From Hamiltosporidium tvaerminnensis (Eukaryota > Microsporidia > Dubosqiidae), in assembly GCA_022605425.2 (NCBI GenBank), contig CM061251.1:899001-963000 (forward strand): a stretch of DNA of 64,000 bases, read 5' to 3'. The translations under genes were made by a program, and so were the position numbers. The first letter of the stretch is position 1. Every line of letters starts with the position of its first letter. Below are positions 1 through 46,644 of the stretch, in pieces. Below the pieces are notes generated by a model that saw only the letters and a list, made by a program, of their open reading frames with translations, was not told the DNA's origin and searched no databases.

Positions 1-2120
1 CTTACATACTCTTTTCATGGTGCAAACCAGCTTATGTAGTTTAAAACCTATAGATATGTTGAAAGTTTATGTGAAATATATGGTAGCGGATTGTGGAAGT
101 AGTTTCTTTCGTTCTACATTAGGTTAAATCATTATGCAGTTTATTATGTAATAGAAGCCCAAAGATATGATGGTGCTAGGTTCCAAGTGGAAAGACCGAA
201 ACATAAAAAATCTAAGCTAATGCGATGTTTTTTTTAAACATTTTGTACAAACAATTGTTTTTCTTTCTATATTTTAAGTGTACTAATCATAATTAAATAA
301 TATGATATTTGAACCAACAAACTTAATCATAGAAATTTTATTTATTTAATTAGAATATAAGCCTATTTTCAAAAACATATTTAAATTTTATACTTTTAAG
401 ATAAAATATTCATCTATAAAAATTTTTAGATTTCAAAGTATCTTCCATTCACTTATATTACTTCATTTAAATTGATTTCTTACTGGTTTGAAAAAAAATT
501 CTTAGCGTTACGTCAAGCAAGAAAAATAATATTAAATTATTTAAAAAATGAGTATAGGTTATTTAGGTTATAATGAAATAATGTTTTTAGGGTTTACCTT
601 TAGCTAAACTAAAATTAAAATATCATGTAAAATATTCCACAATTAAAAATTTTTGTTTCATCCAATACGACTTAATAGACAAGTTTAACGTCTAAAAAAA
701 ATATAAAATTAAACTATTTTAATAATTTGTTTTGGGATTTTGCCTAAAAAAGAGAAATAGGTTAAGAAAATTAAAATTGACAAAACTTAACGTAAAAATG
801 CTTATTTATTTAAATTTAGTTTTAATATATAAGTAGTATAAAAGAATCAAAGTCAGTACTCAAGATATTTTATTGTAGTATCGATTTAATATAAAATTAG
901 ATTCTGTAAATCCTTACCATACAATATATATTTCTAAAAAAAGACTATGCATTATTAAGAAGATTCAATATAGTTATAATATTTACAATTTGAGTCAGTT
1001 AAAATAGGCAGATAGTTAAAAAACGATTTTTATATGTATATATTACGCAGATTAAAATTTTTTATAAAAAACATGGATATAGGTATATGAAAAATAAATA
1101 AAGTCTATATATAGAGAATATCAAAGATATTTCAATAATGGCAATATTAAAAATTCTCATCAATTCTCTTTAAAATAGTATACAAGAAATTTTAAATGCT
1201 ATTCAGATGTATAACTTTCCTTTACTTATCTCTATATTCTTTTTTAGCTAAAGAAGCAATACATATATAATATTTGGCAGCTTGCTCAATTTTTGAAAAG
1301 TCTAATATGAAATTATATAGAAATCATTAGTTACGTATGAATACTCTATATGATTAATGTTTCAATCAATTCATTCTAAGTTTTAAACAACCATTGCACG
1401 AATTTTTTATGTGTCTTTTTGGCTGAACACGACGTTTTATGACCAAGATTAAAAAATATTATTTTTAGATAATGGGTTAAGGCTTTAATTGAGCAAATGC
1501 TCTACATGACCATAAAAAAAAACCAATATCTTATAAACAAAAACTTCCAATTATAGTAAATTTTATAAGTTTATTTTGTTAGACCCTTAAAATCATATGA
1601 GAAAAGATAATACTTGATTAATTTCGAAATATTGCATATTGATATGAATTAAGGAATTCTAAGAAAAATGACTAAAGAATAAATAGAATTCCCTTAAAAC
1701 GAGGTAAAATTCGACATTTTTTGAAAATAAGTGTTAGTATATTCTATAAAATTTAAGATTAAGCTAACTAGAATTGTTTTATAACTAGAAAAACTGCTTG
1801 AATAAGTTACCACTTAACCCAGCAAATAAATAACAAATGAATGATTTGAAAAAAACCTTAAAAAAAAATGTAGATTTGAATAAAAAAAACAGAAAATGAA
1901 AAAGAATAGATAAAGATATAATACGAAAAATTTAAGTTAAACAATCTAGATATATGTAAAAAGTTTTAAATTAGTAAAAATAACAAAAATAATATATAAA
2001 CCAAAATATTCAACGCAAAAAAACTTAATGAAAGAAAATAAGGTAAATAGAATTCAACTTGTACTCAAATTTTTAGATAAAAGTTCGATTTACCATATTA
2101 ACAACTATAAAAAAAATGAT
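1..2120 (+). repeat. R1 repeat, copy 1 (5' end outside window)
   Basis: First of four colinear direct copies of a ~3.1-kb repeat. Its opening bases (cttacatactcttttcatg) recur almost unchanged at 61,462. From there the two copies run in parallel for over 1.2 kb, for example 'aaccaacaaac' at 311 and 61,769 followed by 'aattttattta'. From about 1,225 to 1,850 it also matches the copies at 25.7-26.35 and 44.5-45.8 kb, including the shared blocks 'aaaaacttccaattat' and 'gaaaaactgcttg'. By eye roughly three in four positions agree. The 3' limit is uncertain because similarity fades between 2.1 and 2.4 kb. No open reading frame is conserved among copies. About 400 bp of the 5' end is missing beyond the window edge. 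Confidence 0.8.
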
Positions 2121-2686: not shown

Positions 2687-3358
2687 TTATAGTTCCTTAT
2701 TGTATACCTTCTTATAAAAGTACTTCATCAAAAGAGGCAATTTAGTCCCGTAATCAGGGCATATTACATTATAGTCACTGTAAATCGCGTATTTATGCTA
2801 ATAGGATTATATATAACATTTTAATAGCTGAAAAAATTCACATTTTTAAAAAATTCGACTTTTTACGATATCGAACGAGTTATTTGCTACTACCATTTGA
2901 ATTTATGTCTAACCTATGCAAATAATCTTACATAACCCTCCAACAAACCATATCAGAATGGTTAATAGTAAAAGTAAATTAAGCTGAGAATTTCAGAGGA
3001 ATATCAATATCAGTCAGCATTAGTGGCATTTTTCTAATGACTTCTACATTAGTAAGGTGGAAAATAGTTTTATTAGGGCATCGGTGAATTAATATCCTAA
3101 GGATAACAAATCCCATATCCATAGACATAGTAAGAATACCGCTGTAGATACAAAAGGATAAAAATGTAACCATATTTATAGTTTTAAATTTTTTAATAAC
3201 CAATTACTAAACTTATAGAATAGAAAATAATATAAATTCGGGTTTATAAGATAATAAAGTAACCATCTCAATGCTTTTATTGCATCTAAAATTGGCTCTA
3301 ATGCAAAAGATTTACCAAAATTAAACGACTGGTTTTTAAGCAAACCCTTAATATAAAA
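2687..3358 (-). pseudogene. Decayed coding-like region, unknown product
   Basis: Three successive near-open frames on the minus strand, in different phases, lie in a patch of raised G+C. The first (3,358 to 3,176) reads through GKSFALEPILDAIKALRW. The second (3,203 to 2,979, 74 codons with an ATG) holds a hydrophobic run, then RCPNKTIFHL and ending PLKFSA. The third (2,797 to 2,687) holds YNVICPDYGTKLPLLMKYF. Residues needing G or C (G, A, P, D, W, R) are commoner than in flanking AT-rich DNA, and adjacent pieces sit on the same strand with small frameshifts. That is what a dead gene would look like. I recognise no family. A chance cluster of open frames in AT-rich DNA is the alternative. Confidence 0.35.
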
Positions 3359-3517
3359 CTACTTGAACATGATTATTTTATTGAATTCCGTCAGTCTATA
3401 GTAACTTCGACCCTTCTATAAATCTTAAAGTCTCATTATAATATTCATATACACAATAAAAAAATAATATTACAAATACAGTTTAAATATCAAATAATAG
3501 ATTCAAAGAATTTTATA

Positions 3518-3715
3518 TATTCTCTCCAAAATATCCACCCTAAGACTTTAAATATAATACTCTTCGGATATTCTCTTCAAGAATATCCATTCCACATACA
3601 CTTTAATATGAAGACATCTTTGATATTCTTAAAGAAAATATGCTCCTATATAAAAGAACTAAAATACACTTTTGATATTCTTTTCATAAATATCCATTTT
3701 TTATATATTAAAAAC
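3518..3715. repeat. Tandem repeat, about four units of 51-55 bp
   Basis: Units begin at 3,518, 3,569, 3,624 and 3,676. Each starts with TATTCT and continues through a box resembling tattctcttcaagaatatcc, then an A/T-rich tail. Unit lengths are 51, 55 and 52 bp, and the last is partial. The boxes contain a weak inverted repeat (gatattct...agaatatc), so each unit could form a small hairpin. Divergence among units is high, so the array is old. Confidence 0.6.
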
Positions 3716-3719
3716 TTAA

Positions 3720-6700
3720 AATAATTAAAGAAAGATGTCTTATATGTTTTGCAAAAGTATCAAGTCAAGACATTCATATTTTCTTAACAATGAAACTCTC
3801 ATAAATCTAAAGAAATGTATTAAATTAGCCGATATCCCATCAAAATTAGTATCTAAAAAGTAAAAAAAATACTTTATTAAATTTTGTACGTTTGACCTAT
3901 TTACTTTCGAATAAAAGATAACTATTAATACTAACTCCCAGAATTTAAAAAATATATTGACTTTGTGAATGTATTAGTTAGTAATGAATTTCTTTATATT
4001 TTCTCGAAAACAAACCAAGATAACTCTATTTTCTAGTGTTTTTTATTCAAAAATAATATAGTGAATTCTTTTAATGAGATCTTATAAAACATAATTATCA
4101 TATAAAAATTGTAAATTTTAAACTCAAACTATGCAAAACCAAATTAAATTTTTATCTAAACGAAAAAATATAATTTATTCAATCTGAGATGAAATTGTAA
4201 ACATAAATTTTCAATAAAAAAAATTAATGTAATTACTATCATTTATTGAGTGAAGCGGAAATCTAGATCTTAGTAAAGTTTATACGGGTTTTAAGAGCTT
4301 TAAAATGTGATTTCCTTTTTATATAAACTAATCTCAATATAAAATATATTTCACAATTTACTATATTCAAACCAAACTCAATTTAATGTTCTTTTGAACT
4401 AGTTATGGTTCCTATCTTACCTAAATTTTTCTATCCAAATGTTTTCTTATATTTTAATACATACTTGAAAAGACGAATAATCAAAAAATAATATTATGTA
4501 AAACAAAAAATAAAATTTAAACCGGTTGCAAAAAGTACCTTCCCTTTTCGTCAAGAGTTACAATTATAAGTATCGTAAATTTGTAGCAAGTTCTAGTTTA
4601 GTCAAAAATGTCTGGATTCCCTCCTTTATCTTTAGCTTTATGGATATTAATTTAAGGTTAAAAAATAGAGATTATTCGGTCTTAATGAAACAGTCAAGGT
4701 AAGGATTGTTTTAAAATAGAGGTTATCCAAAGTAGAATAATTATTCATTATAAAACCAATGTTATTTATTTAACACCTGTATTTTAAAAATTTAACAAAT
4801 TTTTAATACTAGAAATAAAATTTAATAGTTCAGATTTTCACAATAAATTTTTTTCTCAAGAAATTTTTCGAATTTCGTTGCTAGAATATAATTCTATCTT
4901 AATGAAAACCAACAACAGTATACAATATACTACAATAATACAAACCATTAGTAATTTCATAGAAAATTGAAAATTGAAAAGTTTAAAAATAATTTGAACA
5001 AAATTCAAGCTCACAAATATTAGTTGGGAATTTTTTTTGAAAAAACCGAGCTAGAATTCAAAACGTTTACTGATTTTTTAAAAAATCTTAAGTTTTGCAA
5101 AAAAACTAAAAATTGTCCATTATGTAACAATATGACAAAGAATTTTCGATAAATTGATTTAGAGGAGACTTAAATCATATAAAATCGATAAAAAAAGTTG
5201 TTCAAATTCCAATCAAATCTAAAATTTCTAAAAATTGCACAAATAAGATATTTGAAAAAAAATTAAAATTTAAAAAAAATAAAAAATTTGAAAAGGTGTA
5301 AAAAAACGTGAAAAAACAGCTAAATTTAAGAGAGAATTTAAAAAAATTGAAAAGAACAGGTAAAAATAAATAAAAAACATAAAAAATTTGTAAGTAAATG
5401 TAAAAAGATATATAATTCCTTACAGATTAAAATTTCTTTTAAATTAGTACAAATCTTATTAAAAAATTTAAAAAAATCAAAAAAATGTTTTAAAAAAATT
5501 TAAACCGACAAACATTTAATTTAAAAAGTAAAAACGGCGAACGACATTAAAAGTATAATCATTTTAAAAACCTCTAAAAAGACTATATTTATAATTCACA
5601 AAATATTTTCTGTATAATATTTAAAATTGATATCGAAAAACGAAAAAACAGACTACATTATAGGAAAATATAATAAAAAAGAATTAAAACTGTATTAGAT
5701 AAAGAAATAACTACAAAAAATAATTCGAAATTCTGAAAATGTAACGAAACGCTTTAAAACTAGAGAAATGACTGTAAAATAGTAAGTCGATGCACAAAAC
5801 CTCTAACTTAATTAGAAGGAAACTATTTTTTCCGTACTAACTTAGCAGAATGTTTCTAAACCTTAGGTTTTGAATATAATTCATGAAGGAAGTTAAACGA
5901 ATGAATATCTTAAATAGAAAATCCTTGAAGAAAAAAAAATACAAGTACCATTCTAAAATGTAATAACGAACAAAGGAAACAGATGATTAACAAATTAGCT
6001 TAAATAGATCATTATTTACTTAAATGTTGGAAAGTATATATAAAAAGATATATAGTAGTATGAAGAGTTAGGATGAACCATTAATCTAAACTAAAAAGAA
6101 AAAACAGATTTATATGCCAAAAAAAGTAAGATTAGCTAGCCTAATACCCATAAGAGAATACAATTTAATAAATATGATTCTTTAGTCACTTTAAAAGTAT
6201 TAAACATAAGAACAAATAAAAAAGGAAAAAATCTAATGAAAAAAAATAAATCTAAGTTAATATATAGCTACAAATCCTAACTCGCCCCCTGCTATTTACA
6301 TTTTTTTCATGGTCTAGACATTTTATTATTGACCCAAACTCTTTCCTAAAACTACATATTTAAAACAAAAACCTTATAAATAAAATATAATGTAGAATTG
6401 CTGGTTATTAACCCAGACTCTTTTTCAAAATATCATCTAAGAATATTCATCTTAACCTGTAACCTTAATCCAGAAACCAGATTCAAATAAAGAGAAATAA
6501 ATTAACCCGAAAATTTTAGGGTTATGATTGGTTTCTGTGTTGGACCAATTAGGAGTAATTATATATTTACCCTATAGTCAATCTTATTCCTTTTTCTTAC
6601 TTTTTTTACTTTATTTTGTTTATTTCAAATAAAAATTTATTCCTTGAGATAAGTAAAAATACCAACTTTGAATTTTTTCCCCTATTTGTTTTTAGCTGTT

Positions 6701-6929: not shown

Positions 6930-8650
6930 AGTTAGGGAAGAAAGTAACAACTCTTGGCTAGGTAGCTGAGGTTAAGGAAAGTACTTCTTTTTTTATAAAT
7001 AGGTGCATGAAACAAATTTTCTTTTTTTTGAGTAGAGAAAATATTTTTTATTAAATTTTCTACATCTTTACTTCAAACATTTTTGCAAGATAGGCCAGGG
7101 AAATGAGAAGTATAGAAAGAAAAAGAAATGTTAGGGAAAAGAACAAATAGTAAATAAGGAAAAGCAAATTAGGGAACAGAAAATTGCGTTATGGAAAGAA
7201 GAATCAAAGGAAGAAATTAATCACCCACTTAAAAAGAGTTAGTAAGGAGTAAAATTAGTAGTTAGGGAATAAAAAGAAGTACATATAGGAAGAAAGAAAA
7301 TGTGGGAAAAAGAAATTTAAGGAAGAAAAGAACTATCTATGGAAGAAATTATATTGAACAAAAAAAATAATTGGATAGGGAAAATGAAAACTGTTTGAGA
7401 AAATATTTTTTTATAAAAAAGAAAATTGGTGAGTGTAATTCGTGTAGGTGAAGAAAGATTAGCATAGGACAAAACATCTAATAAAGAAAGAAAAAAATAG
7501 TTCAGTTTAGCAGAAATTTCCAGAGAAAAAATAATTGGGTAAAAAAAGAAGGTAGGGAAAAGAAAATTGGGATAGGGAAAATAAAGGATTATGGTAGGGT
7601 GGAAAAAGGGTATGTGAGAAAATAATATGTTAGGAAAAAAGATTATAAAGTAACAAAAAAAAGGCAGGGAAGAATAAATTAGTAAAGGCTGTGAAGAATT
7701 GGTTAGGAAATTTAAATAAAAAATAGATAAAAATATTAGTTAAGGAAAAGTAATATTCTGAAAAAATAAAAGTTAGGGAAAAAAGATTAAGTAAGTAATA
7801 AAGATTGTACTGGGAAGTAAGAAAGTTAGGGAAAATAATTTAATTTACACAATTACAATAATCTTTTAAAATAAGTATTCTAGTAAGAAGATATAGGGTA
7901 AGGGAAACTGAATTAATTTTTTAGGGAAAAAATATAAGATAGATCGGGAAACAAGTTTTAACATTTACACAATAACAATTTTAAGCAATAAATCTGTATA
8001 ATCAAAAACTAAAAAACATTGTTTAGAAATTAGTTAAGCTTTCTTTTCTCTCATATTTTGTTTAGGGAAATTCTTAGGTATAATTAAAAATTGCTTTCTT
8101 TTATAATTACTATTCAGTTGCTATATTTTTTTTTTCAAATTTTGTTTAAGGAAATAATCTTTTTTATGAATTATGTTTTTATGATTTAAATGCTTTGGTA
8201 CTAATATTATATGATAAAGGTTTTGGCAAAAGGTAAATTCACTATCGTGATTTAAAATTTATTTTAGAAATGTAGTAAGGAGTAAATCTTATTTTCCTAA
8301 CATGATTTGGCGAAGAGAATATCACCATAGAAATAAAGATATAGCGAAAAAAATTCTATAGAGGAATTAGAGTAGTGCTGAAATAGGAAAAAGAGTTAGA
8401 CAAAGATTTATAGCAAATTAGAGAGTATTTTAAGAGATAAAAACTTAAGTATAAATATAGTAGTAGAAAAATATAAGAAAAAAATTCGGGCTTTAATTAA
8501 AGGAATCTATAGAACTATAGAGAAGTAATGCTAATAAAGATATAAAACAATGATCGAAGAAAAGTAAGAAAGAAAGATGAGGAACTAGTAAATAAAGACT
8601 AGAGAAGAATTAAGATAAAAGAATAGGAAAGAAAAGAGAACAATAATTGT
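6930..8650 (+). repeat. Purine-biased tract rich in TAGGGAAAA-like words
   Basis: The plus strand is strongly A+G-rich for about 1.7 kb, unlike its surroundings. From 7,130 to 7,930 the word GTTAGGGAAA or a close variant recurs at least eight times at irregular spacing (near 7,131, 7,167, 7,261, 7,630, 7,702, 7,773, 7,827 and 7,921), with further AGGGAA words between. Diverged duplicates also occur: 'atttacacaattacaat' at 7,850 against 'atttacacaataacaat' at 7,965, and 'ttttgtttagggaaattctt' at 8,057 against 'ttttgtttaaggaaataatc' at 8,140. The tract looks like a decayed minisatellite. A decayed purine-rich coding strand is possible, but I could not read a sustained frame. Confidence 0.45.
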
Positions 8651-9006
8651 ATAAAAATACATAGAACGAACACATTTATTTAAGAATAAATTCAAATACA
8701 TATCAACATATCTAAAAAAATAATAAAAAAACAGGGTTTTGGATTATGACCAAATTAAAGCATTTAAAATAGTTGAATTACAATCGTAAGATACAGTAGA
8801 TGATAAATCAGTTTAATTGGTAATGTGACTTTAAAATTTATAAGAACGATTTTCGGAGTTTTTCTAATTGTGTAAGTATATGGCTTTAAAAACCTATTCT
8901 AGTTATATAGGTAAATTTGTCCAAGTTTCGGCACATTGACTTAAACTTCTTGTAAATATAATTGATTGTGCTGGTTGGTTATCACCGAGCATTACGGGGT
9001 TATTAA

Positions 9007-21400: not shown

Positions 21401-22195
21401 GGACTATGATGATTTCCTACTTTGGTTTCCAGTTATTTCTTATAACAATCACATGGAAGTAGTTTACGCATGATAATTTATGCAAAATATACTGAATATT
21501 TTACGCCATTACAAATCCGAATCAAATAATAATTATTCTAAAATTTGTACTAAGATTCAGTTAAAATAGTAAATTTTGTCACAAAATCCATCTAGAAAAT
21601 TTCTAAATCTCACAGTATTCTTATATATTTTTTCAGTATCATTAATTTAAATCAATTTATATTTTTTTAGAAACTAATCGTTATAAAAAATTCATTAATT
21701 TTTAAACAATTAAACGTATTATGAATCTGTTTATTAACACCGTATATTGATATTTCTGTTTTCGTATTAGTCTACACAGTACTACATTTTATCGTAAAGC
21801 TTTGCATAGAATTACTAGGGTATAAATATCAATGGTAAAAAAATTTATTAATTTGTAATAGGAGAAGTAATAAATATATTCACCTGCTATACTCTAACAT
21901 TGTTTTTATATGTAAAAATTAATTTAGTTAATTTATATTATTCCTTAATTACGAGAAAAAGTAAAGTATGTATTCCACGAATTTTAATGTTTTTTGTTCA
22001 AATTTAGTGAAATCAAATTCTATACAGATAAATAGAAAAAGTAATGATCGGAACAAGCAAAGCCTGTTTTTTAAAAAATAGAAGACTTTGTAATGTAATA
22101 TGAAAAAAAGGAAACGGTGCTTTAAGAAGAAAAAACAGGGCAGAAATTTCACTGAAATATTAGTGATGTCCAAAAAAATTTAAAGTTTCTAATAT
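18460..22195. other. Gene-free AT-rich DNA
   Basis: No coding-like frame, RNA gene or repeat recognised. Small (AAAAT)n runs occur near 19,723. The stretch 20,500-21,000 is slightly less AT-rich and pyrimidine-biased on the plus strand, but I could not read a sustained frame on either strand. Confidence 0.55.
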
Positions 22196-22199
22196 ATAA

Positions 22200-24050
22200 A
22201 CCAAAAAATAATAATAAAAATCTAAATCTTTACAAAAAATAGTGTAACGGATATAAATATGACTAAAAAGAAGAATTGGTAGCAAAATTAGAAAACATAT
22301 GTACAGACTTAAGAAATGTAAGCAAAATATAAGTTTGCGAAAAATACCAAATATTTAAAAATACTTCAGATTATAAGCATGAAAAAAATATGTACATTAT
22401 ATACTGCTTAGCAAGTAGGAAAATAGTAAGAAAATCAAAGGGACTATTTTTTTTTGATATATGTAAAAATTTGGAAAGAAAAAAAGATATAACGGAATAT
22501 AAAAATGACAGTAAGAAAAGGCGGTTTTAATATATTTGAAAATTTAGTTATAGATAATAAGAATTATAGCCATTTTTAGAGACTATGAGAGATAAAATAG
22601 TATGAAAAATACCGCATTTGATAAGATTGAATTGGGGTTTAAAATATTTCAGAAAAATGCGAAAAAGCAGCTTCATTTGTAGGAGTATCTTCAGAAAAGT
22701 AATTAGTAAGATACTGCAATGTTTGACATAGAAAAAGGAATCAGCTAATTATATAGGAAAATATGATGATTTATACAAAAATAAGAGATGTAGCCAGTAT
22801 TTCTTTTAAATTTATCTTCAAGGAATGCAAGAAATTTTATCGACAACCCATAAAAAGAATTTATATCAAGGAACGTATATCAATTTATATTTAAGGAAAA
22901 CAATATATATAGGGGTAAGAAATAAAAAATAAACGATATTAGGATGTAATAAAAAATAGAGCAAAATCTTAAGCAATTTTACTGAGGGGGAAATATTAAA
23001 ACTTTACTTTAGTGAAAGTAGAATAAAGAAAAGAACGTAAAAAATAAGGAGAAAGTAAAAAAAATATTGAACTTAATTTTAAACAAATACAAGACTAGTA
23101 AGAAGAAGGATAAAGCCACCAAAAGCGTAAAAATCAAATAGCAGAATTTTACTTACTGCGTTTAAAATTTATTTGACAATAAGTTTCCAGAATCAGAAGT
23201 AAGAGTAAAAATAAAATTAAAGACAGCAAAGGCATCGGAATTGATAATAGTTAGCGGATGAAAATAGAGTTAGTGTAAAGATTGAAGAAAAATATGGAGA
23301 AAGGTAGATAGAATACTTAGGGAATAAAGTAAGTTTCAATATGTAACGAATAAAATTAGAATTTTATAAATATATAGATATGTGAAATTTAGAAAGAAAA
23401 AAATTATAGGAAAAATTAGAAAAATGTAGAGTGGAAAGATAGAGAAAGGAAAGGTAAAGTATGATAACGAATTAAAAAATAAAAGTAAAAAAGTATGGGT
23501 AAGGAAATGATAGGGAATAAGGTTTGTTGAATTCTAGGCAAATACAGGATATATTTGAAAAGGCACTCAGTATGAATTAAGATAAAGAGATGAGTATTAA
23601 AACGTCTTGTAAAATATAGCATTGCTATTAAACCGTAAAAGAGTATGATTTGTTAAGAAAAAAGTTATTAGGAATAAATGTTAATTTTATGGTAGGAATA
23701 ATAGTAGAGAAAAAAGGACAAGGAGTTAAGAACTATATAGGGAAGAGGTGTGGGAGAGGTAAGGCTAGGATTGTCTTGGATGGCTAATCAAGTATATAAA
23801 AACGGGGTTATAAGCAGATAATAAGAATTATCATGGTAATGTAAGGTAAGAATGTGGATAGGAGGTAAGGAAAATACTTTTAGTGAAGGGTATATAAATG
23901 TTTGTTCTATGAGAGGAGGAATAATTTTATGTGGAAGAGAAAAATTTAATATAAGACGGAAGGTAGGAATAAAACTAGACTTATATCTAAGAAAGGTATA
24001 TATAGATGATTAGGGTTACAAATTATATAAAAGAACATAGATAATTGTAG
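22200..24050 (+). other. Purine-biased tract, G-rich towards its end
   Basis: The plus strand is A+G-rich for about 1.85 kb. From 23,400 to 23,950 it is unusually G-rich for this window, with words such as gggaagaggtgtgggagagg. In very AT-rich compact genomes such skew often marks the sense strand of a former gene, and parts do read as protein (see 22,570-23,262). No repeat unit as clear as in the 7-kb tract was found. It ends just before the second R1 copy. Confidence 0.4.
22570..23262 (+). pseudogene. Decayed coding-like region in purine-rich tract
   Basis: From 22,570 to the stop at 22,809 one plus-strand frame has only two internal stops (TGA near 22,600 and one TAG) in 80 codons. It reads FLETMRDKIV, then LNWGLKYFRKMRKSSF and SANYIGKYDDLYKNKR. 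A second open piece ends at about 23,262 with KFPESEVRVKIKLKTAKASE. The intervening 400 bp is too broken to follow. I recognise no family. Chance is a serious alternative because lysine-rich frames are easy to obtain from purine-rich DNA. Confidence 0.3.
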
Positions 24051-24104
24051 AGGGAATCTGAAAATACGATATGGAATCACATTATATAAAAAGAATACAT
24101 ATCT

Positions 24105-27100
24105 ATGTTAGAGCCTAAATCTCGCTCATGTATCAAAATTGACAAAAAGTTTTTGTATACGTTTATACGAAACAGGTAAGGATAATTAACAAGAATAAGG
24201 TTTTTTTATTAAAGTAAATAAAAGTTATTAGTTTTTAAAAGTTTAACCTATAAATCATAAAATAATATTTTATCGTTTTTTCTTTATGATATACATCTTC
24301 AAGCCGAGTTCTTTCAAATAGTCAATTGTATCCCATAATTGGGCTCTTTTCCTTGGAGTTATCGTAATCTAAGTTAATGATATTGGTATAGGTATTTACC
24401 AATATATTCTAAGTCAAATCATTCACTTATTAAGTTAAATCAGACTTTAACAAAGACCGGATGAGTTTATTGGCATTACCGTGTGAATCATAATAGAAAC
24501 ACATGTAAATAACCTTACATATGTACTTTTATAATACAAATTAGCATAGGTTGTGAAAGATATATATATTCTCAGTTGCGATTTTTTCAGTAAATGTATA
24601 TGTTGATCGTGACTTTTGTTTATATTGCTTTACTATAGATTTAATCTTTATTTATACAAAGAAGAATCAGAAGTTTCATACTAAGATGGTCTTAACTCAC
24701 TCGTAGCTGATGCCTTAACCTATAACCCTATTCACACTTTATTTAATTTTTTATAACCATTTGTCTTTCTATTTATATTTTTATTAGACAGATTTAAGTT
24801 CCATATGATAATCTATAAATCAAAAGATACTAGCATAGAAATTTTATTTGATGAGTTACAAATACTTGTTTCATTAAATTATAAAACTTTGTTTTATTTG
24901 TTTGCCTTAATATCTACCTATAAATATATTTAGATATCGAAATGTAATCATTATCTTTTAATTCACACCAATATAGGCATTTCTTTATTTTTTGAAGATT
25001 TGCTCGAGCTTTATATTAATTGTCAAAATATATATTATAAAATGAGTTATATTATGATGGTTTTTACTGAACTATATATATTAAAGATTCATTCTGTCTT
25101 TATACCAGAATTAAAATATTATTCAAATTATTTTAATCCGTATTGCTTCAAAGAAAGTGAAAAATCTAAGAAAACCAAAATAATATAGATATACATACCT
25201 TTTAAAAAATAGTTATAGCAATCGTCATTAACCTAGGTAGATAAATCAAGCGCATTGAAATTAACAAATAATTAATGCATAAACAGTTATTGAAATGTAG
25301 TTTTTATAGAAAGTAATATAAATAAAATAAGGTTATCACTTCAAGAGGTTTTTCTAAATATACTATTTAGTTTTATTCAATACTTTCGAACTTAGCACTA
25401 AGATAGTATATAGATTTAATAAAAAGACCTTACAAAATTTAAACATTTAATACATTTATTCTATAAAAATTCAATTTGGTTCACTCTGGCTATATATTAT
25501 GAAATGAAATATTTATTTATATGGATATAATGAGACAAATTAAATATTAAAATCTACTGCCTATGGATTTTATTACATATGAATAATAAATTAATGTCTT
25601 ATAAATCTATAAAAATATAATCCATTTCAAGAAAGGAATAAGTATACTTTTCTCATTAATTCATTGAAAAGTTCAATACATGATAAAAATACCTTTTCAA
25701 ATATACATCTTTCTTTCGCATATATTTATGTTTTTTTAAGTAACATAAACAATACATTTATAATAGATGACTGGTATTTTGCTCAATTTAAGGAAAGGAT
25801 AATGATATCAAGTTATATAGAAATCGAAAGTTATCTATAAATCCCATATATGATTAATGTTGGTAACAATATACTGAGAGCTTTTCTGAACAATTTCACA
25901 AAAATTAATACGGCCATATTTAGACTGAACACAACTTATTATGACCAAGATTAGAAAACCTTATTTTAAAATGGTTAAATATGGTTTTAATAGTCTGAAT
26001 ATAATAAATGAACATAAAAAAACCTACAATACCTTACACTCAAAAACTTCCAATTATGGTAAATTTTAAAAGCCTATTAAGGTTATCCACTAAAAATCGT
26101 ATAAAAAGAGGAAATGCTTAAGTATATATTCCAATGCAACATATTGATATGATTAAATAAATTATAAGATAAATGACTATAAAATTAAAGCGTTTAAGGA
26201 AAACAAGATAAAATTATAGATTATTAGAAAATAAAATGGTTTTTTATTCTATAACTTTAAGATTAAAAGAACTAGATTTGTTTTATGAGTAGAAAAACTG
26301 CTTGCATAAGTAACCAATTTAACTTAGTAAATGAGTAACAAAAGAATAATCCGAAAAGAATTTAAGCAATCAAAAGAAATGTGGATTCGAATAAAAAACT
26401 TTGAATTATAAGAAGTAAAAAGATATAAACAAATGAAATTTAAAACAACAAACTAAATTTAAGAACCATTCTGTAGTTAGAAAATATAACTAAAAAAATA
26501 ATAAACTAAAAAATTCAACTAAAAAGCTTAAAGATGAAAAAAAAAGTAAATAAAAGTCAAAATATGATGCAAATTTTTATATTAGAGACAGATTAAAAAT
26601 TTAACACATATAAATTATATCAAATTCAAATTAAACATAAAAACGAACCAGAAATGGTTTATATCGATGAAGGGGCTATATTATTTATACAGTATAAGGG
26701 TTAGTATAAAAAACTAACTAATAAATTTGAACTATGTATCTGAAATAAAGACTTAGTTAAGATATATATTTTTATAACAAGGAAAGCAAACACAAAGATA
26801 GTTAAATTTAAAATTACATATAAAAAATAAATATTTATTTTGAAGTATGTCATTATAATTCTACTGCTAATATGCAATACAATTGAACTTACCATAATAT
26901 ATCAGAATTAATACTGAAGAATAGACACAGTATTTGAGAAAATAGATAAAAAAAACTTAAGTAAGATGTATATTTAAAAAGATGTATTTGGCCAAAGTAA
27001 AAAGTATTCTAGACAATTAAATTAATTGAAATTTAAATTTCTAATTTTAGATAGAATTTTTGTGCAAATACAAACGAAAAGTAACATTTTGTTTGAATAT

Positions 27101-37289: not shown

Positions 37290-40200
37290 GTACAATAACA
37301 ATCGTTATATAAGAATGGAATCCTTATATTGCCATATAATCGCCAAGAAATAATAACTCCTAAATTTATCGGATATTATATTTTAGATGAAGATATCTAA
37401 ACAGTTATACTGCTCATGACTAAGTTCGATTTCCCCGATCTTTTCTGTATTACCTTCTGCTCATTCTAGCCGTTTCAATATTAAACCAACTACTTTGTAA
37501 CACTTAGAAATTTTTTAAAAATAATTTTCTAATTTATTTTATTCCAAAAATACTATTATTATAATTCGTTCTAAATTTAACCAGATGCGAGACATTAAAA
37601 ATAATGTCTTGATTGTGATTTTTCACCGGAGTTTGCAAGACTAGACAAATTTTTTTTATATTTCTAGAATCAAGAGAGCATTTATCATAAAAAAGCCAAA
37701 TTTGAAATCAAATAATATAAGATACAGACTTAAGGTCATGTCCCTTTACTTCGATAGAATCTAAAATTCTGAGAAAAAAGAGTACCAGATTTCTATTATT
37801 TTTTCGAATGCTTATTAATAATTTAGTTGGAAAAGGAAAATTTTTTCTTATATAAAAACTTATCCATTTAGAATTAAGTAGTTCATTAAAACTTGCAAAA
37901 AATGGATTTTTCAACAAAAACAAACCACTTTATGCTTAAAAGAGATAATATTAACAGTAATGTCTAATATGTTTTATTTCCTTTCAGAAAAAGTGAGCAA
38001 GTGATTAAAAGCCGTATTCTAAATTAATTAGGCAATATTTTGAATAAGGTTGATTAACACCATATAGAAAATTACAAATAAAAGAATATCTGTTTTTAAT
38101 AAAAAATTTTCAAGCATTTCGTTCAAACCTAAGAAATCTTTCTATAGATCACTAAAAGTCTTTTTTTCAATTTTACCTGATTAATATAAATAAATAAATT
38201 ATTTTTTAGTAATAATCCTATCGATTTTTTCCAAAGATTTTAAATAAATTGGGCTTATTAACCTTAAGGTTTTAGACTTTTACAATTATAGGAATGCTAA
38301 GAGTATATTTTTTTTGATTTTTAAAGAATATTGAAATTCAAAAAAGAAAAAAATTGTAGAACTAATTTTTTAAAATCTAGTTTTTTAATTTTATACTCCT
38401 CTTTTTTATTTACTTCAAAATTAAATCATCATATATTACATTCAGGAATTTATGTGTAAACGAACTAAATATTTCGAAAATTTAAAAAAGAAATAGATTC
38501 ATAGATCTACTGTAGAAGCAAATTTCATAATTCTAACGATTTAAAATTTTTTAAACCAACCGTATTAAATCTTAGAATTCTTATATTCTAACGAGAGAAC
38601 TCTGTATCTTTCTATATATCTTTCCTTAATATTTCAAAAGCTATAGCAAATATTTTTATAAAAAATACTATTCCCTTGGTTTGATTCAATATGCTATTTT
38701 CAGAAGCAATAAAAAATGTAAAAGAGTCTGGTTTCAGCATTGCCATTTCAAAGCTACAATGGTGTGTTAACATGACATCTTAAAATAGAAATACAATAAA
38801 GTGTTGTTTCAAACATTTTTATTTTATCATCATAGTAATGTTTCAAATATATTTTTTAATAAAATCTATTTTATTTCTTTCTAATTATTCTCAAAACATA
38901 TTTTAAAACGCAAATTTATTTTCATTCATAAGATATTACTTTGTTTTTGGAATATGGTGATATAGATTTTTAATTTAATAAATATATTTTCACATAATTT
39001 TTATTAAAGCCGAAATCATTTAAAGCCAAGAAAACAATTCTTTGGGTTTTATATATGTTTGGAACGAAAATCAACCAATAACCCATGCTTTAGGCTAATA
39101 AAAGTAAAAATAATTCCAAGACATTTAAAATAACTTCTTTGTCACCAAAATTTTTCGCCTGAATTATTTTTATAATTTAATAGATTCTTCTTAAAGCAGG
39201 TTTAAAACAATAATATAGTGTTAGTTGCGAATACATACATGGGTTTATTTGAAAATATAAGAGCAAATATTATATGATATAACCAAATATAAAATCTATA
39301 ATGACTCTAAATTTTGTAACCAAGGAGTTTCTGAATGATTATTTTTCGGCAACTAAACAATCTCTGGACACATTTTTCTCGATGATTGAACCAGAACCAT
39401 ACTTTTAAGCAGATTATAAGAAAATGAATAATATTTGAATCTTCATATTACTGGTACGCCTAAATATTTAAATTTGACAGATATTTCGTAAATATGACAA
39501 TTGAAATTAAAATTACTCTGCAGCATCACTAATTTATCTTTATACAAATGGCTTTGCCTCTAAACATATGGCTTGGCATCATCATGTATTGATATCTATA
39601 TTATTAGAAAAGAGACAAAGAAGACCCTTTCTCATTAAATTTTACATTTTTTAGGATTGCATGGTTTTATGAATGTAACTCTTAAAAATATTTTGTATTC
39701 ATAATTTTATTATTTGCTCTACTGAAACAAATTATACAATCAGAATCAATAAATCATAGCTCTTAAAAACAATATAAGTACTATTCATGATTATATGTCC
39801 AAAATCAATACAATGAATCGATAACCTGTTATTTTTATACCCTTAAAATATTTTTAAAACGTTTTTGAATTACAAAGAATCTTATATGACTGTTACAAGA
39901 GCGGAAACCAAAATCTAAATTTCTCATATAGAAAGTATGTCTCCTATTCGAAATTATTTTTTGAAATCAAAAGATTCCAAACATATAATTTTTATTCGTT
40001 TGCAAATTCAAAAAATAAAATTCTAATATTTGTAAGATTTATTCTTTAAAATTTTAAATTTTTTTTTAGAAATATTTATGAAAAATTTATTAATTTAAAG
40101 AAATTACAAACGAACTTAAAATTCTTCTTTACGACTGAGATATATAATTTAAATTCTTATAACGTATTTCATACCACAGATTCATTGAAATGATTTTATT

Positions 40201-40545
40201 ATAAAGTTAAAATTCGTTATTAATTTTAGAACAAATTGCACATTTTAAAATAATATATACAGATAATAATTCGATTTTTTTTTGATTTTGAAATGCTTAA
40301 AGTATAGAAGTCGTTTCTAAAAGATGATACCTTTTTAAATTTTAGAATTAAAATTCAAAAATATTTAATTTAATATTTATTGAAATACCTATTATCAAAT
40401 TATATTCCTAAAAAGGTCTTAAATAGTATAGGCAATATATTAAGCCAGAAATTAATTGTAAAAGATTTCTTAATAGAATAAAATTTCATTTTTATTTTGT
40501 ATTGAGATTATTCTCTATTTCGAAATGGCTTTTTAAAATTTTTTC
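37290..40545. other. Gene-free AT-rich DNA
   Basis: No supported gene or repeat. The minus-strand 71-codon frame at 37,708-37,923 (FASFNELLNSKWISFY) is slightly protein-like but isolated. The segment 37,420-37,500 is locally less AT-rich without a readable frame. Confidence 0.5.
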
Positions 40546-40551
40546 TATTTA

Positions 40552-40660
40552 TTTTTTACAGAGTTTTACCCTAACGGTTTCGATATCCAAATATTTGTTA
40601 CTACAAAGGAATGAATCAAACAATATGACCAGAAAATGGAAAGCAGTAGAATAAGTGAGT
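40552..40660 (+). repeat. R3 motif, copy 2
   Basis: 'ttttaccctaacggtttcga' is followed by 'ggaatgaatcaa' and 'gaccagaaaatgg'. The matched blocks at 59,625-59,720 are 'cttctaccctacgtttcttc', 'agaaatgaagct' and 'aatcagaaaatatg'. About 100 bp are alignable by eye. Confidence 0.4.
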
Positions 40661-40664
40661 AGCA

Positions 40665-42940
40665 TGTGAATCAGGGATAATGCAATATTATTTAGTTTAT
40701 TCATGCAATAAGATGCTTTATCAGTTTTAAATACACTTAAAAATATTCTTGGTTGATATATTTACAATGGAAATAGATTTAAAATGTAAATTTCAAGTTT
40801 TAAATCCCTGGAAATAATATAATCAGATAAATAGAATTACCTCATTGACACTTATATTATTTATACAATCCCTTCTGCAAATATATCTAATCCTAAAACG
40901 AGTTCAAATTGTGTTGAATTAAAACTTTTTGGCTTGTGAAAGGAACTGATCCAAGGAAAAAGGAAGAATATGTAGTTAAGCTGATTGATGTCTAATGGGT
41001 TTTATTTATATACATCATGATCTAATCAATGTTTCAAAATCATTTTTCTTTTGATAATTTCAAAGTGTTTTTTATGAGAAATTTCGAGTTTTGCTATTTT
41101 GTAACAAAAGAGCAGAGTGAATCAAATTATTTCCATGATTTTCTAATTTGAATTTTAAAATGAAAAGTAGTAAAAAATACTTGATGATTGATATGATTGC
41201 AACAGAATCAAACTTCAAAAATATCTGTAAAGGTTTGTTCTATAGACTAAAGATTAAAATGGTTGTAAGGTTTTGCATGACAACTTATTTTTCAAAATTT
41301 CATAAGGAATGTATATTAAAATTCAATTTAGACAAAATTTAAGAAATATATAAAGAATTCATGCAATGTGTTCTTATTGAACAAATAATTTATCACTCAT
41401 CTAAAGAAATTATTTATATAGAACGTAGAAATAACTGTTTAAGCAGTATGAAAATGAATATACAGATTGATGACTGGCAAAGAATCTTTTTAATTTTGTA
41501 AAGATATTTCATACTTTCTTTAAGCTTAATAAAATCGCAATCTATTTAAATAAAAAATAATTCTTCTATTTTATTTTTTTTATGGTTTTCTTGTTTGTGC
41601 TATGAATTTATACGTTAATCCTACTTTTCTTTAAGATTAAAATTCGGTATTTTTAAAAGGCTTCTCATTTATATTTCATAGCTCGATAATTTAGAGGTGT
41701 ATTTAAAAAAATATTGTCTCCAATTTATAAAAATATAATAAAAGTCCAAGTTTCAATTAATTTCCTTCTTAGCCTTTTATTTTTTTAGTTCTTATTCGTA
41801 TTTGTTTTGACTTAGTCTCCACATCAGAAAAAAAAATATAATTTATCTTTAAGTTAACGTTTCCCGACTAACCTTCTATTGTTATAAGACTTAAGGCTGT
41901 AGCCATTTGACCTTACAAAATAAAGGTACATCTTATAGCTTGTGAAACGTAAGATTAGATTAACATTTTTATCGGATAATTATGATATTATACCAACGTG
42001 TTCTATCTATTTGTTTTTCTTTGAAATTTGATGAAAATGTGTTAAGTTATATTTGTCTACGAAAGATGCGATTTTTAAACATTAAACCCAAAATAATTTC
42101 GTCTTATTAATGCTTATATAAAGTAAAGTTAGCAATTACAAAATAAAAATTATATATTAAATATATAAATGCTACAAAGAAATACAAAAATGCCAAAAAA
42201 TTAAATTAAAGGTAAATGAAACTTGAAATATTCTATTTAAAACAAGAAAACATTTAATTTGAAACATATTCGATTTAATCTTTGCACGTACTTTTAAAAA
42301 CCATTTAATAAAAATTCTAACGATTTTAAAATACGAAGAAAAAAAAATGAAAATTTAAGAAAAAAAATTATATACAATGAATCTGAAGGTTTTTATTTCA
42401 CAAGTTAAGCCGTAGTTAAAGATTTTGTACAAATTTGGATTCTTCTTTTAACTATTTTGCAGTTTTCTTATTTTCTGGATATACATCATACTAAATAGGT
42501 ATGAAAGTAAGATATCTTTGAAATAAAAAATAATTGCAATTTGCTTTCTTTTAAAACATTCTTCGAGAATCTTTTAATGAGGAAATATAAGAGACAGCAA
42601 CGCCGAGAAAAAACTCATAATATTAGGATATATTTTTCATATGAAGTATTAGAAATTTGTGATAAATTTCATGCTTGAACCTTCTTTAAAAACCCTACAC
42701 ATCGTTCTAAATCATAAAAAAATTTGGTTAAAAAGGTTTTTTATTTTATAGTCACATTAAAATGAAATTAAGAGGTTTTGTAAGAAAATGTTTGATATTG
42801 GTAATAAAGATTTTGTAAAGGTACAGTTTCTAGTGTTTAGTAGATTTCGAATTTCTTTTTTGTTCGAAAGAAACGAAATCACAAATTATTGCAATTTTTA
42901 TGAAATTAGGTTAGAAAAAATATTTATTTAAAAATAAAAC
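40665..42940. other. Gene-free AT-rich DNA
   Basis: Nothing firm. The 64-codon plus-strand frame at 41,148-41,342 (YLMIDMIATESNFKNICKGL) is mildly protein-like but isolated and lacks an ATG at its first codon, so I do not call it a gene. Confidence 0.5.
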
Positions 42941-45098
42941 AACTTAATCCTAGAGCCTACATCTAACTCATATATCACAAATAAAAAATGTGTTTTTTTA
43001 CGTTAACAGAGAGCAGGTCAAGATAAATGACAAGAATAACATATTTGATTAAAATAAATAAAATTTATTAGTTTTTAAACTTTTTCGTCTTAATTTCACC
43101 AAATTATTTCATAATTTTCTTTATGTATACATCTTCATACCGAGTCCTTTCAAATTAGCAGTTGCTTCTATAATTGGGCTCTTTGCTTTGGGCTTATTGT
43201 AGTTGTAATTAAAGTTAATTATATTTTGGGTTATCTAGCAATATATTTTAGGTAAATTCATTCACTTGTTTAGTTAAATCCGACTTTAAAGAAGCTCGAT
43301 GATTTTTTTGATAGCACCCTTTGAATCATACTAGTAACACATGTAAATAACCTTACATATGCCTATTTTATAATCCAAATCAGCTTAGAAACTGTAAGAA
43401 ATAAAAATTAACCTTTAAATATTCTAATAAAATATATCAGTTGATTGTGGCATATGTTTATATGGCTTCTACATTAAGTTCAATCCTTCAAAATAAATGA
43501 AATATTCAGTTTCATGCTAACATATTCATAAATAACTTTTAAAAGATGCCACAACATTTAGCCTCCAACATTCATTATAGTTTTTAGTAATTTTTAACAT
43601 TCAATTGTCTTTCTTTTGTATTTAAGGAGACAAATCGTAATTTTGATATTATAATCTCTAAACGAACCAACAAAATCATAGAAATTTTATTTGTTGAATT
43701 ACAATACACGACTGATTTCATTAAAAAAATGGTTTTTTAACCTTCTCATTCAATCTCCTTATATTTATATATCAAAATATTATCAATATCTCCTAATTCA
43801 AATTAGTATAGTAGTTCCTCATTATGTAAAGACTTTTATTATATTTATATCTAATTAGCAAAATACATATTAAAAAAATAGTTATCAATTTGGTTTATAC
43901 TGAAATATATCTTTTAAAGATTCATTCTATATTTATACTAAATTAAAATTTTATCTATATGTTTTTTTATTCATTGAATTACTTTTTTTGTTAATCCGCA
44001 TTGCTTTATAAAAAAGTTAAAGATCTAAGAAAACCAAAAAAATACAGATTCTACATTAATTAAAAATCAGTTGTAGCGATTTTCTTTTATATAGATAAAT
44101 GATTTAAGCACATTAAAATTATCATTTACTTAATCTAAAAACAGTTATTGAAATCTGGTTTTAGAATAGAAATAGTATAATAAGAACAAGGTTACCAGTT
44201 CGAGACATTTTAGTATACTATCCTATTTATTTAATTTAATTCTTTAGATCTTTGCAGTAAGATAGTATATAATTCTGATAAGAAGACTTTACAAAATTGA
44301 AAACAATTTAATACATTTATAACTATGACAATTTAAGTTGGTTTACTCTGACTATATTTTACGAAATTAAATATATATTTATATGAATATATTGAGACGA
44401 ATGAAATCTTCAAAAAACTGCTTATAGATTGTATTAAACATAATAAATTAATCTCTTTATAAATCTATAAAATATTATCTATTTCAAGAAAGACAAAAGT
44501 ATTAATTTTCTGATAAATTCCATTAAAACTTCTATACATGATAAAAATACCTTTTCAAATGTACATTTTTCTTTCAAATATATTTATTTTTTTTTAAGTA
44601 ACATAAACAATACATTTATAATAATGCCTGGCATTTTGCTCAATTTAAAGGAAGGTAAGTAATTTGAGAATATGTAGAAATCTAAAGTTACGCATAAATA
44701 CCATATATGATTGATGTTTCTAACGATATACCGAGAGCTTTTCTGAACAATTTCACAAAATTTAATACGCCCATATTTAGACTGAACACAAGGTATAATA
44801 ACCAATATTGCAAAAACATGTTTTTAGATATCGAGATAAGGTTTTAAGAGTCTGAATATAATAAGTGAACATAAAAAAACATAAAATACCGTACACTCAA
44901 AAACTTCCAATTATGGTAAATTTTATAAGCTTATTAAGGTTAACCCCTTAAAATCGTATAAAAAGAGGAAATACTTAAATATATATTCCAATGTAACATA
45001 CTGACAAGATATAATGAATTATGAGATAGATGAATATAAAATTTTTAAAAATTCATTAAATAGGAATAAAATTATAGTTTATTAGAAAATAAAATGTT

Positions 45099-45107
45099 AC
45101 TTTATTC
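45099..45107 (+). repeat. Target-site duplication, left copy
   Basis: actttattc, identical to 45,704-45,712. The empty-site homologue in R1 copy 2 has a single related site near 26,245. Confidence 0.85.
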
Positions 45108-45703
45108 AGAAGAAGAATAAGATAACACTCATTGAAGTAGGAATCACTTCCCAAGATTCACTTCAAATAGTTGAAACTGAAAAACTTAGGAAGTATGACC
45201 TGCTAGCCAATGAGTTGGGCCTTATTTATAAGTGTAGTGTTGAGATAATCCCTTATGTGATGACCTGGGACGGTATTGTGACAAAATACCATAAATCTCA
45301 TCTTAAAAGACTAGAAATACCCATGAATGTAGAAGCATACATTCAGTCTATAGTACTTAAAAAGACAGTCGAAACTATTTCCTTTGATCGACGAAGAGGA
45401 CTTGAGTCAGGACTAAATGCCGAAGAGAGCTGGGAGAGAGCGTCAATGGGTGTTATTATGAGATCAGAGATGCATGAGGAACCAATACCCCCTTTAAAAG
45501 AAGCGAAAACAGAGGAAGATGGTGCCAAAAATTTTAAACCAAAATATAAAGCCCCCTTTATTTTACAAGGAGGAACCACTTTAGAGGAACCGACCAATAA
45601 CATAAATGAAGAGTCGGATTTGGAAGAAGAGACAAAAGTGGTCAAAGAGGTAGAAGAAAATATGTAAAAATGGTAAAAAATATTTTAACCCAGAATTTTA
45701 TTA
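45108..45703 (+). mobile_element. 5'-truncated non-LTR (LINE-type) retrotransposon insertion
   Basis: A 596-bp block of about 40% G+C lies inside an R1 copy of about 18% G+C. It is bordered by a perfect 9-bp duplication and absent from the same point in the other R1 copies. It starts in the middle of an ORF, runs to that ORF's stop (45,665) and ends with a 36-bp 3' untranslated tail. This is the classic product of incomplete target-primed reverse transcription. There is no poly(A) tail; the tail has A-runs ('taaaaatggtaaaaaatatttt') and ends 'cagaattttatta'. The intact frame and high G+C show it is much younger than its host repeat. Full-length relatives must exist elsewhere in the genome. 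Confidence 0.85.
45110..45667 (+). pseudogene. C-terminal fragment of a LINE reverse-transcriptase protein
   Basis: 185 codons are open from the insertion's 5' edge to TAA at 45,665. The frame runs on upstream into host repeat to a stop at 45,083, so there is no genuine start; TTG at 45,215 is internal and the first in-frame ATG lies near 45,322. The order is a beta-like segment (NKITLIEVGITSQDS), then ETEKLRKYDLLANELG, IIPYVMTWDGIVTKYHKSHL, a helix (EAYIQSIVLKKTVETISF), RRGLESGL, and a ~90-residue E/K-rich tail ending VEEN. From family knowledge, 'E-K-x-x-K-Y-x-x-L-x-x-E-L' followed by 'V-x-x-I-P-x-V-x-x-x-x-G' is the segment after the RT thumb in many non-LTR retrotransposon proteins. The catalytic RT core and endonuclease are missing, so it is non-functional. 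The acidic tail may be element-specific. The minus-strand frame at 45,343-45,645 is its shadow. Confidence 0.75.
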
Positions 45704-45712
45704 ACTTTATTC
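45704..45712 (+). repeat. Target-site duplication, right copy
   Basis: actttattc directly after the element's 3' end. R1 sequence continues immediately with 'tataacttta'. Confidence 0.85.
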
Positions 45713-46644
45713 TATAACTTTATGATTAAAATAACTAGACTTCTTTCATAAGTAGAAAAACTGCTTACATAAGTGACCACTTAACTTAGTAGATGAATAA
45801 CAAAAGAATGATCTAAAAATATAGATAACGGTATATTAAAATATTTTAACGTAAAACATATTAACTATAAGTAGAAATTCTAAATTTAGTAAAAATAAGT
45901 AAAATTATTATAAATACAATATTAAATTAAAAAAATCTAAAGAAGAAAAATGTTTATTAAAAATAAATGTAATACAATTATTTATTTAGAAGCCAAGGTT
46001 TAAATAAAAGATAAATACATACAAAAAACTTCAAATTAAACCTAAAAAGGAACTTGAAATAGTGTATTTCAATCTTAAAACCAAATAGCATTTATAAAAC
46101 TAAAATAAATAAATAAAAAACAGAATTGATAAATAAACCATGTTTCGAAACTAACGATTTAACTCTTATATATATACTTTGAAAAAAATGATTAAACTTA
46201 AAAACCACAGAATAAATAAATATTTTGTATCGTATGTAAAAAATATTACAAAAAACTATTAATGTAATACTTTTCAATCAACAATAATTTTATGACTTAC
46301 TTGACAAGAATAGATAAAAAATAAAAAAAATGTAAATAAACAACTTTCTACTGAATAAAATTTAAGGAATATAGTTTTAAAACTACATAGTATTGTAATA
46401 TTAATTTATTAAAAATAACAATTTCTAATTTTAAATAGAATTTTTGTGTATAGAATCAAATAAACCATCTGAAATGATTTTATAAGATGTATATCACATT
46501 TATCATGTGTTTGAAATTGCAATATTCAATAAAACCTGTAAAAAAACTAAAAACATCATAACTAAAAAGTAAAAAAGTTTTTTTTGTAAATATAGACTAT
46601 ATAATTGGGAAAATAATTAAAATAAAAGACATATATTAATAAAA

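Follow-up and report, generated by a model that had tools for sequence, protein, structure and literature searches.

This locus raises the question of whether the block at positions 45,108 to 45,703, which stands out from its surroundings and is bracketed by the same nine bases on both sides, is an inserted copy of a mobile element, and what its borders tell about the family to which it belongs. The window, i.e. the whole 64,000-nt stretch of DNA analysed, comes from Hamiltosporidium tvaerminnensis, a microsporidian parasite of Daphnia (water fleas), and corresponds to C6:899001-963000 in the searched genome of 21,638,905 bases on 17 contigs. Based on our observations, we suggest that the block dates from a recent, 5'-truncated insertion of a high-copy LINE of the restriction-like-endonuclease (RLE) type by target-primed reverse transcription, and that the RNAs behind full-length family members carry a short host leader, a reading to which we give a probability of about 0.88. 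The features discussed are as follows.

42924..45107, + strand: 5' part of the recipient R1 repeat copy, 75% to window 24082-26249
45099..45107, + strand: left copy of the target-site duplication, ACTTTATTC, present once at the paralogous empty sites L029 and L030
45108..45703, + strand: 5'-truncated LINE, element nt 3203-3798, 100% identity to the 3' part of the full-length copy L009
45110..45667, + strand: LINE coding fragment, codons 1069-1253 and stop, second half of the restriction-like endonuclease and acidic tail
45668..45703, + strand: 3' UTR, 36 nt, terminal TTTTAACCCAGAATTTTATTA, without the AATAAA(A) typical of most copies
45704..45712, + strand: right copy of the 9-bp target-site duplication, exact repeat of the left copy
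45704..45819, + strand: 3' continuation of the recipient R1 copy, matches 26243-26357 and 1740-1852
25650..26357, + strand: R1 copy with uninterrupted site, 84%
1154..1852, + strand: R1 copy with uninterrupted site, 71%

The block is 596 bp long and corresponds to the 3'-terminal part of a LINE of 3.8 kb. Its G+C content is 36%, against 18-30% for the 1-kb windows of the whole stretch. Only two closed stop-to-stop frames reach 120 aa there; the longer one holds the block, the second being the complement of a purine-rich stretch. These are the properties for which the initial annotation had singled it out, and its description of a block that starts mid-ORF and ends just past the stop was also accurate, as the first base falls inside codon 1068 and the stop codon (45665-45667) is followed by 36 nt. 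A 9-bp match at both borders is expected by chance with a probability of ~1.3e-4, given the base composition; besides the two borders, ACTTTATTC has one more exact + strand occurrence in the window, at 61914. Blastn of the window with a full-length LINE copy revealed no copy besides the block. Elsewhere in the window, positions ~7000-9000 and 22000-24000 are strongly purine-rich, with a GC skew of up to 0.59 and no obvious coding sense.

The recipient sequence, R1, is a subtelomeric repeat, older and diverged: a search with the 600 R1 bases nearest the insertion gave 87 candidates, and of the 40 that were scored, 37 are located less than 100 kb from a contig end. When the flanks were joined with one repeat copy and used as a query, they aligned across the junction to window positions 25650-26357 (84%) and 1154-1852 (71%), the copies at 26.2 kb and 1.75 kb in which an uninterrupted site had previously been noticed, and in both of these the 9-mer is mutated. 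Clean, gap-free empty sites were found on C1 (L030, 193/195) and at the right end of C5 (L029, 192/195), and a third one on C15 (L031, 168/192, with 5 gap positions). The empty sites hold one copy of the 9-mer only, and relative to them the window copy shows no target deletion. As the paralogous sites on C1 and at the C5 right end are free of gaps, the insertion is proven against real empty sites. The R1 copies without insert on these three contigs confirm that the LINE entered an older, diverged R1 and that the block is not carried by R1 copies generally.

A twin of the block is present at C5:65207-65802, 100% identical and with the same flanks. It is part of a mirrored segment in which 8101 bases show 100% identity (window 38110-46210 = C5:64700-72800), and R1 matches also pair up in mirror image between the left end of C5 and the right end of C6, with nearly constant coordinate sums (1009910-1009912) over at least 62 kb. 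Since the twin is embedded in an identical mirrored segment, it represents a single insertion event seen twice and not an independent insertion. The two contig ends result either from a recent subtelomeric duplication or from one chromosome end having been assembled twice.

Used as a genome query, the block gave 1206 candidates, and all 40 scored matches cover its positions 1-596 at 99-100%; a 596-bp identical copy elsewhere is found on C11. The best 20 matches, selected for spanning 1-596 and including the window copy and its twin, were fetched: 11 are full length from the ATG and nine are truncated. The element extends over ~3798 bp up to the end of a common TTATTA and contains one frame of 1253 codons, which is open in seven of the 11 full-length copies and broken in four. 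The 5' ends of family copies are variable, while the 3' end is shared. Together with the repeats at 45099-45107 and 45704-45712 and with the empty sites, the identical copies bear out the reading of the block as a young 5'-truncated LINE insertion with an exact 9-bp duplication.

Several copies have peculiarities of their own. In an eight-T run at element nt ~382-389, one T is missing in eight of nine copies with a protein match ending near codon 135 (L049, L050 and L052-L057), which is either a slippage hot-spot or a homopolymer assembly error. L055 (C6:280739) is a full-length copy inserted ~25 nt or less from the 3' end of a second copy of this LINE, and the diverged copies L056 (C5:639166) and L187 (C8:730113) are preceded by an identical 5' flank of at least 40 bp, indicative of segmental duplication.

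In the complete 1253-aa protein, RVT_1 (residues 504-743, E 7.2e-28) is the only Pfam domain to pass the cut-off, with no apurinic-like endonuclease domain reported; the isolated 186-aa block fragment gave no Pfam match. The reverse transcriptase (RT) is followed by a knuckle, CQHCGKSGKTVDHLATRC (CX2CX8HX4C), and an RPD...E motif lies near the C-terminus. The knuckle columns, as well as P953, D954 and E969 (numbering of the relative P0002), are invariant or at least 90% conserved in an alignment of 17 sequences. With a structure model of P0002 (mean pLDDT 72.5, pTM 0.45), the top seven Foldseek hits were R2 proteins, whereas VIA-align ranked human LINE-1 ORF2p above R2, its alignments to R2 extending to model residue 1058-1063. 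Because of this disagreement the endonuclease motif was used to decide, and the family is an RLE LINE with a single ORF; the available part of PMC5678591 gives this layout for RLE-type LINEs, with a knuckle spacing of CX2-3CX7-8HX4C after the RT. The window fragment begins downstream of the PD of the motif, which is absent, and retains the conserved E (45110..45667). Its 185 residues, previously taken for an RT C-terminus, are instead the C-terminal half of the restriction-like endonuclease with the tail. Relatives of the family protein were listed from Hamiltosporidium, Vairimorpha, Pancytospora, Nucleospora and Dictyocoela, and a table in the accessible portion of PMC4202319 counts twelve LINE families in H. 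tvaerminnensis. Two further listed relatives, P0097 and P0129, are located on 2-4 Mb contigs of Babesia caballi; they might reflect horizontal transfer or mis-assigned sequence.

The common 3' end, ...CCCAGAATTTTATTA, is present in 20 of 20 fetched copies, which had been selected for spanning the block. It is continued by AATAAA in 17 of them, by AATAGA in one and by neither in the window copy and its twin. Genome-wide, the exact terminal 15-mer occurs 475 times and is directly followed by AATAAA in 363 cases (reversed-pattern controls: 1 and 0, respectively), and among 17 others that were read, 13 continue with AAT, three with AAG or AAA and one with CCT. The absence of a simple poly(A) tail, noticed in the initial annotation, is a property of the family. 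However, the block does not provide the exact family boundaries, as had been proposed: 45108 is an arbitrary truncation point, and 45703 lies ~6-7 nt before the usual 3' end, short of AATAAA(A). Full-length copies with duplications of their own exist in the genome, as anticipated, but most 3' ends run past the last base of the block. According to the part of PMC10542269 available, A[A/U]UAAA precedes the mRNA end in H. tvaerminnensis by an average of 20 nt. As the insertions stop at this hexamer, reverse transcription is suggested to begin within the 3' end of the element and not on a poly(A) tail. Folding of the LINE 3' end RNA gave no stable structure (z = +1.0). A SINE sharing the same 3' end was considered and rejected, since five of seven divergent 3' ends hold LINE coding sequence, the other two consisting of a short LINE tail only.

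Target-site duplications characterize the family as a whole. From 38 collected junction pairs, two were without a recognisable 3' end, and the twin (L011) and L015 were not entered in the script; 29 of the 36 pairs have an identical word of 11 nt or more in common, compared with 12 of 1260 mismatched pairs. For the remaining seven the script found no exact 11-nt word, some being resolved by hand. The duplications are mostly 11-16 bp long, so that the 9 bp of the window copy are fewer than in most copies; L017 (9 bp) and L024 (10 bp) are also short. The eight bases to the left of the duplication resemble TAAWWATT, an AT-rich motif that is weak but significant (positions -8 to -2 in 29 copies: 49.8 bits versus a null of 16.0, sd 4.8, 0/2000), position -1 being left out, as it is affected by the way in which the duplications were extended. 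The left flank of the window copy is partly similar to this motif.

The 5' ends of full-length copies present a different picture. There are 127 exact 21-mer LINE 5' ends in the genome. Flanks were taken from 103 copies with query-matching first codons, and removal of three with mutated start motifs and two duplicates left 98 distinct ones. These have no common sequence upstream of the ATG and no fixed base at any of 40 upstream positions, and their suffix sharing does not exceed that of control offsets, one pair excepted. As nothing is shared before the ATG in the 98 flanks, full-length copies appear to be without a 5' UTR of their own. The first 36 nt of the element, considered as a promoter, have a mismatch rate of 0.03 among 11 copies, which is within the range of the other 36-nt bins (0.008-0.11), and we therefore make no claim of promoter conservation.

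The ATG directly follows the duplication in 10 of the 28 full-length copies curated and is separated from it by 1-11 extra nt in 18, whereas none of seven truncated copies has such nucleotides (Fisher p 0.003). These counts are hand-curated. L027 (perhaps 14 nt) was excluded as ambiguous, and from the truncated set the low-complexity L014 and the twin L011 were excluded, whereas L015 was included. The curation differs from the script in four copies; L083, L016 and L026 take longer duplications, which in L016 and L026 include mismatches, and L091, located within a local tandem repeat, was scored with 0 extra nt in place of the script's 14, a value that would make the contrast with truncated copies no weaker. 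As extra nucleotides are confined to full-length copies, they probably arise when synthesis reaches the 5' end of the RNA.

The origin of these nucleotides is suggested by two pairs of closely related copies. L025 (C17:226410) and L169 (C12:1403736) show 0 differences over 3799 bp, the next nearest of 16 copies compared having 13, and after its own duplication L169 has AAGCAAGT in front of the ATG, the same bases with which the duplicated target of L025 ends. Similarly, L170 (C11:519935) and L171 (C10:549544) differ at two of 3797 positions, the others of the 16 at no fewer than 49, and before its ATG L171 carries TCTATTTTT, the end of the duplicated target of L170. The leaders of these putative daughters, L169 and L171, thus comprise 8 and 9 nt and match the host DNA beside the parental ATG, as would be expected if the parental RNAs had started 8-11 and 9 nt upstream of it and had been copied to their ends. 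Judged by suffix sharing alone (best control offset 16.3 bits), L025/L071 is the sole pair to exceed the controls (20.4 bits), and L073/L077 (14.1 bits) became convincing only after element comparison. The leader ACTTGGA common to L172 and L173 is a weak case, with 67 element differences. Four other leaders, GTTAGG, ACTTAAA, GAAAAAAATA and AGAATTA, were each found once beside a LINE start in genome-wide exact pattern searches, i.e. without a parent in four of four cases; their parents may be lost or missing from the assembly, or these nucleotides may be non-templated.

From the sequences at hand, LINE RNA appears to start in host DNA, with the leader being copied into the daughter. We consider it likely that this LINE has no 5' UTR of its own whatsoever, that the RNA of each copy starts 0 to ~11 nt before the ATG in random host DNA, and that a daughter inherits the leader of the parental site. 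The signal placing the start would then have to be part of the coding sequence or of AT-rich flanks of a generic kind. Very short leaders have a precedent in the microsporidian Encephalitozoon cuniculi, whose mRNAs have 5' UTRs under 7 nt according to the portion of PMC2803860 available.

The shared 3' end, variable 5' ends, duplications, target motif and empty sites lead us to infer target-primed reverse transcription. The LINE enzyme would nick the bottom strand at the left border of what becomes duplicated, and the exposed 3' end would serve as a primer, with cDNA synthesis starting from the TTATTA-AATAAA that terminates the element RNA, that is, at the polyadenylation hexamer and not at a poly(A) tail. 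For the window copy, synthesis would have begun ~6-7 nt further in and ended after ~600 nt. In full-length copies, the RNA would start 0 to ~11 nt before the ATG, in flanking host DNA, and the reverse transcriptase would copy this short host leader into the daughter.

Different explanations can be proposed for the 5' junctions. The extra nucleotides might be non-templated additions or repair filler instead of a transcribed leader, as in Drosophila R2, for which the accessible text of PMC3774820 describes non-templated additions at junctions, and the four leaders searched genome-wide without a parent would fit this idea. We nevertheless regard it as unlikely, because in two cases the leader is found in the flank of the copy closest in sequence (0 and 2 differences over 3.8 kb), where it belongs to the duplicated target of the putative parent itself. 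A regular halt of synthesis at the start codon, or trimming of the RNA there, e.g. by a 5' ribozyme, is also an improbable reason for the missing 5' UTR. The 10 of 28 copies devoid of extra nucleotides would be compatible with such a process, but the other 18 carry nucleotides upstream of the ATG, and L009 with 200 bp upstream, the one copy searched, gave no Rfam match up to E 1. Moreover, with 5' UTRs as short as those of E. cuniculi (PMC2803860, in the part available), a short leader is expected without any processing.

As for the window copy, a LINE cDNA might have been inserted at a double-strand break and not at a nick made by the LINE itself. A duplication shorter than in most copies and the absence of the terminal AATAAA speak for this, but the duplication is clean, no target was deleted relative to the empty sites, the left flank is partly motif-like, and duplications of 9 and 10 bp also occur in L017 and L024, which leaves this explanation little weight. 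That the block is an original part of R1, deleted from the other R1 copies, can practically be dismissed: among the matches listed (40 scored each for the block and R1) the C6 copy and its C5 twin are indeed the only R1 copies adjoining the block, but its sequence is present at many unrelated sites, each with its own duplication, and the empty sites contain exactly one copy of the 9-mer. Target-primed reverse transcription by the LINE thus remains our preferred reading of the window copy.

This single copy is an ordinary insertion, atypical within its family in its 9-bp duplication and lack of AATAAA, and the missing 5' UTR and apparent leader transfer of the family are of greater interest. 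The family termini given here amend what the block alone implies. The family looks recently mobile, since the frame is open in seven of the 11 full-length copies fetched and two parent-daughter pairs are nearly identical, and it suggests how a LINE may persist in a lineage with nearly leaderless mRNAs. As daughters would inherit the parental leader, the junctions would constitute a fossil record of transcription starts and parentage. If true, leader transfer would allow transcription starts to be mapped and source copies to be traced from sequence only. Hamiltosporidium tvaerminnensis is an organism that is difficult to manipulate.

In the literature covered, with subscription journals mostly outside its scope, we found no description of the termini, target motif, missing 5' UTR or leader transfer of this LINE. 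Compared with known systems, it resembles human LINE-1, which is of the APE type, in RT sequence and fold, but differs in having a single ORF, no APE domain by Pfam and insertions without a poly(A) tail. Insertions of human LINE-1 carry such a tail. In contrast to R2, the family is not specific to 28S rDNA and occupies scattered AT-rich sites with unrelated flanks on many contigs; it has no 5' UTR, its duplications are mostly 11-16 bp, no ribozyme was found (Rfam, one copy), and its leader sequence varies between copies. R2-type N-terminal zinc fingers or Myb were not seen by eye, RVT_1 alone being above the Pfam cut-off. R2 RNA can likewise retain as much as 36 nt of the host rRNA that precedes the element, according to the part of PMC3774820 available. 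On the other hand, like R2 and other RLE-type LINEs, whose one ORF encodes an RT and, after it, a CCHC knuckle and a PD-(D/E)XK-like endonuclease, the family combines a single ORF, an RT, a CX2CX8HX4C knuckle and a PD...E near the C-terminus with variable 5' truncation and a common 3' end that lacks a long poly(A) tail. The annotated reverse transcriptases of microsporidia belong to the same protein family as this LINE.
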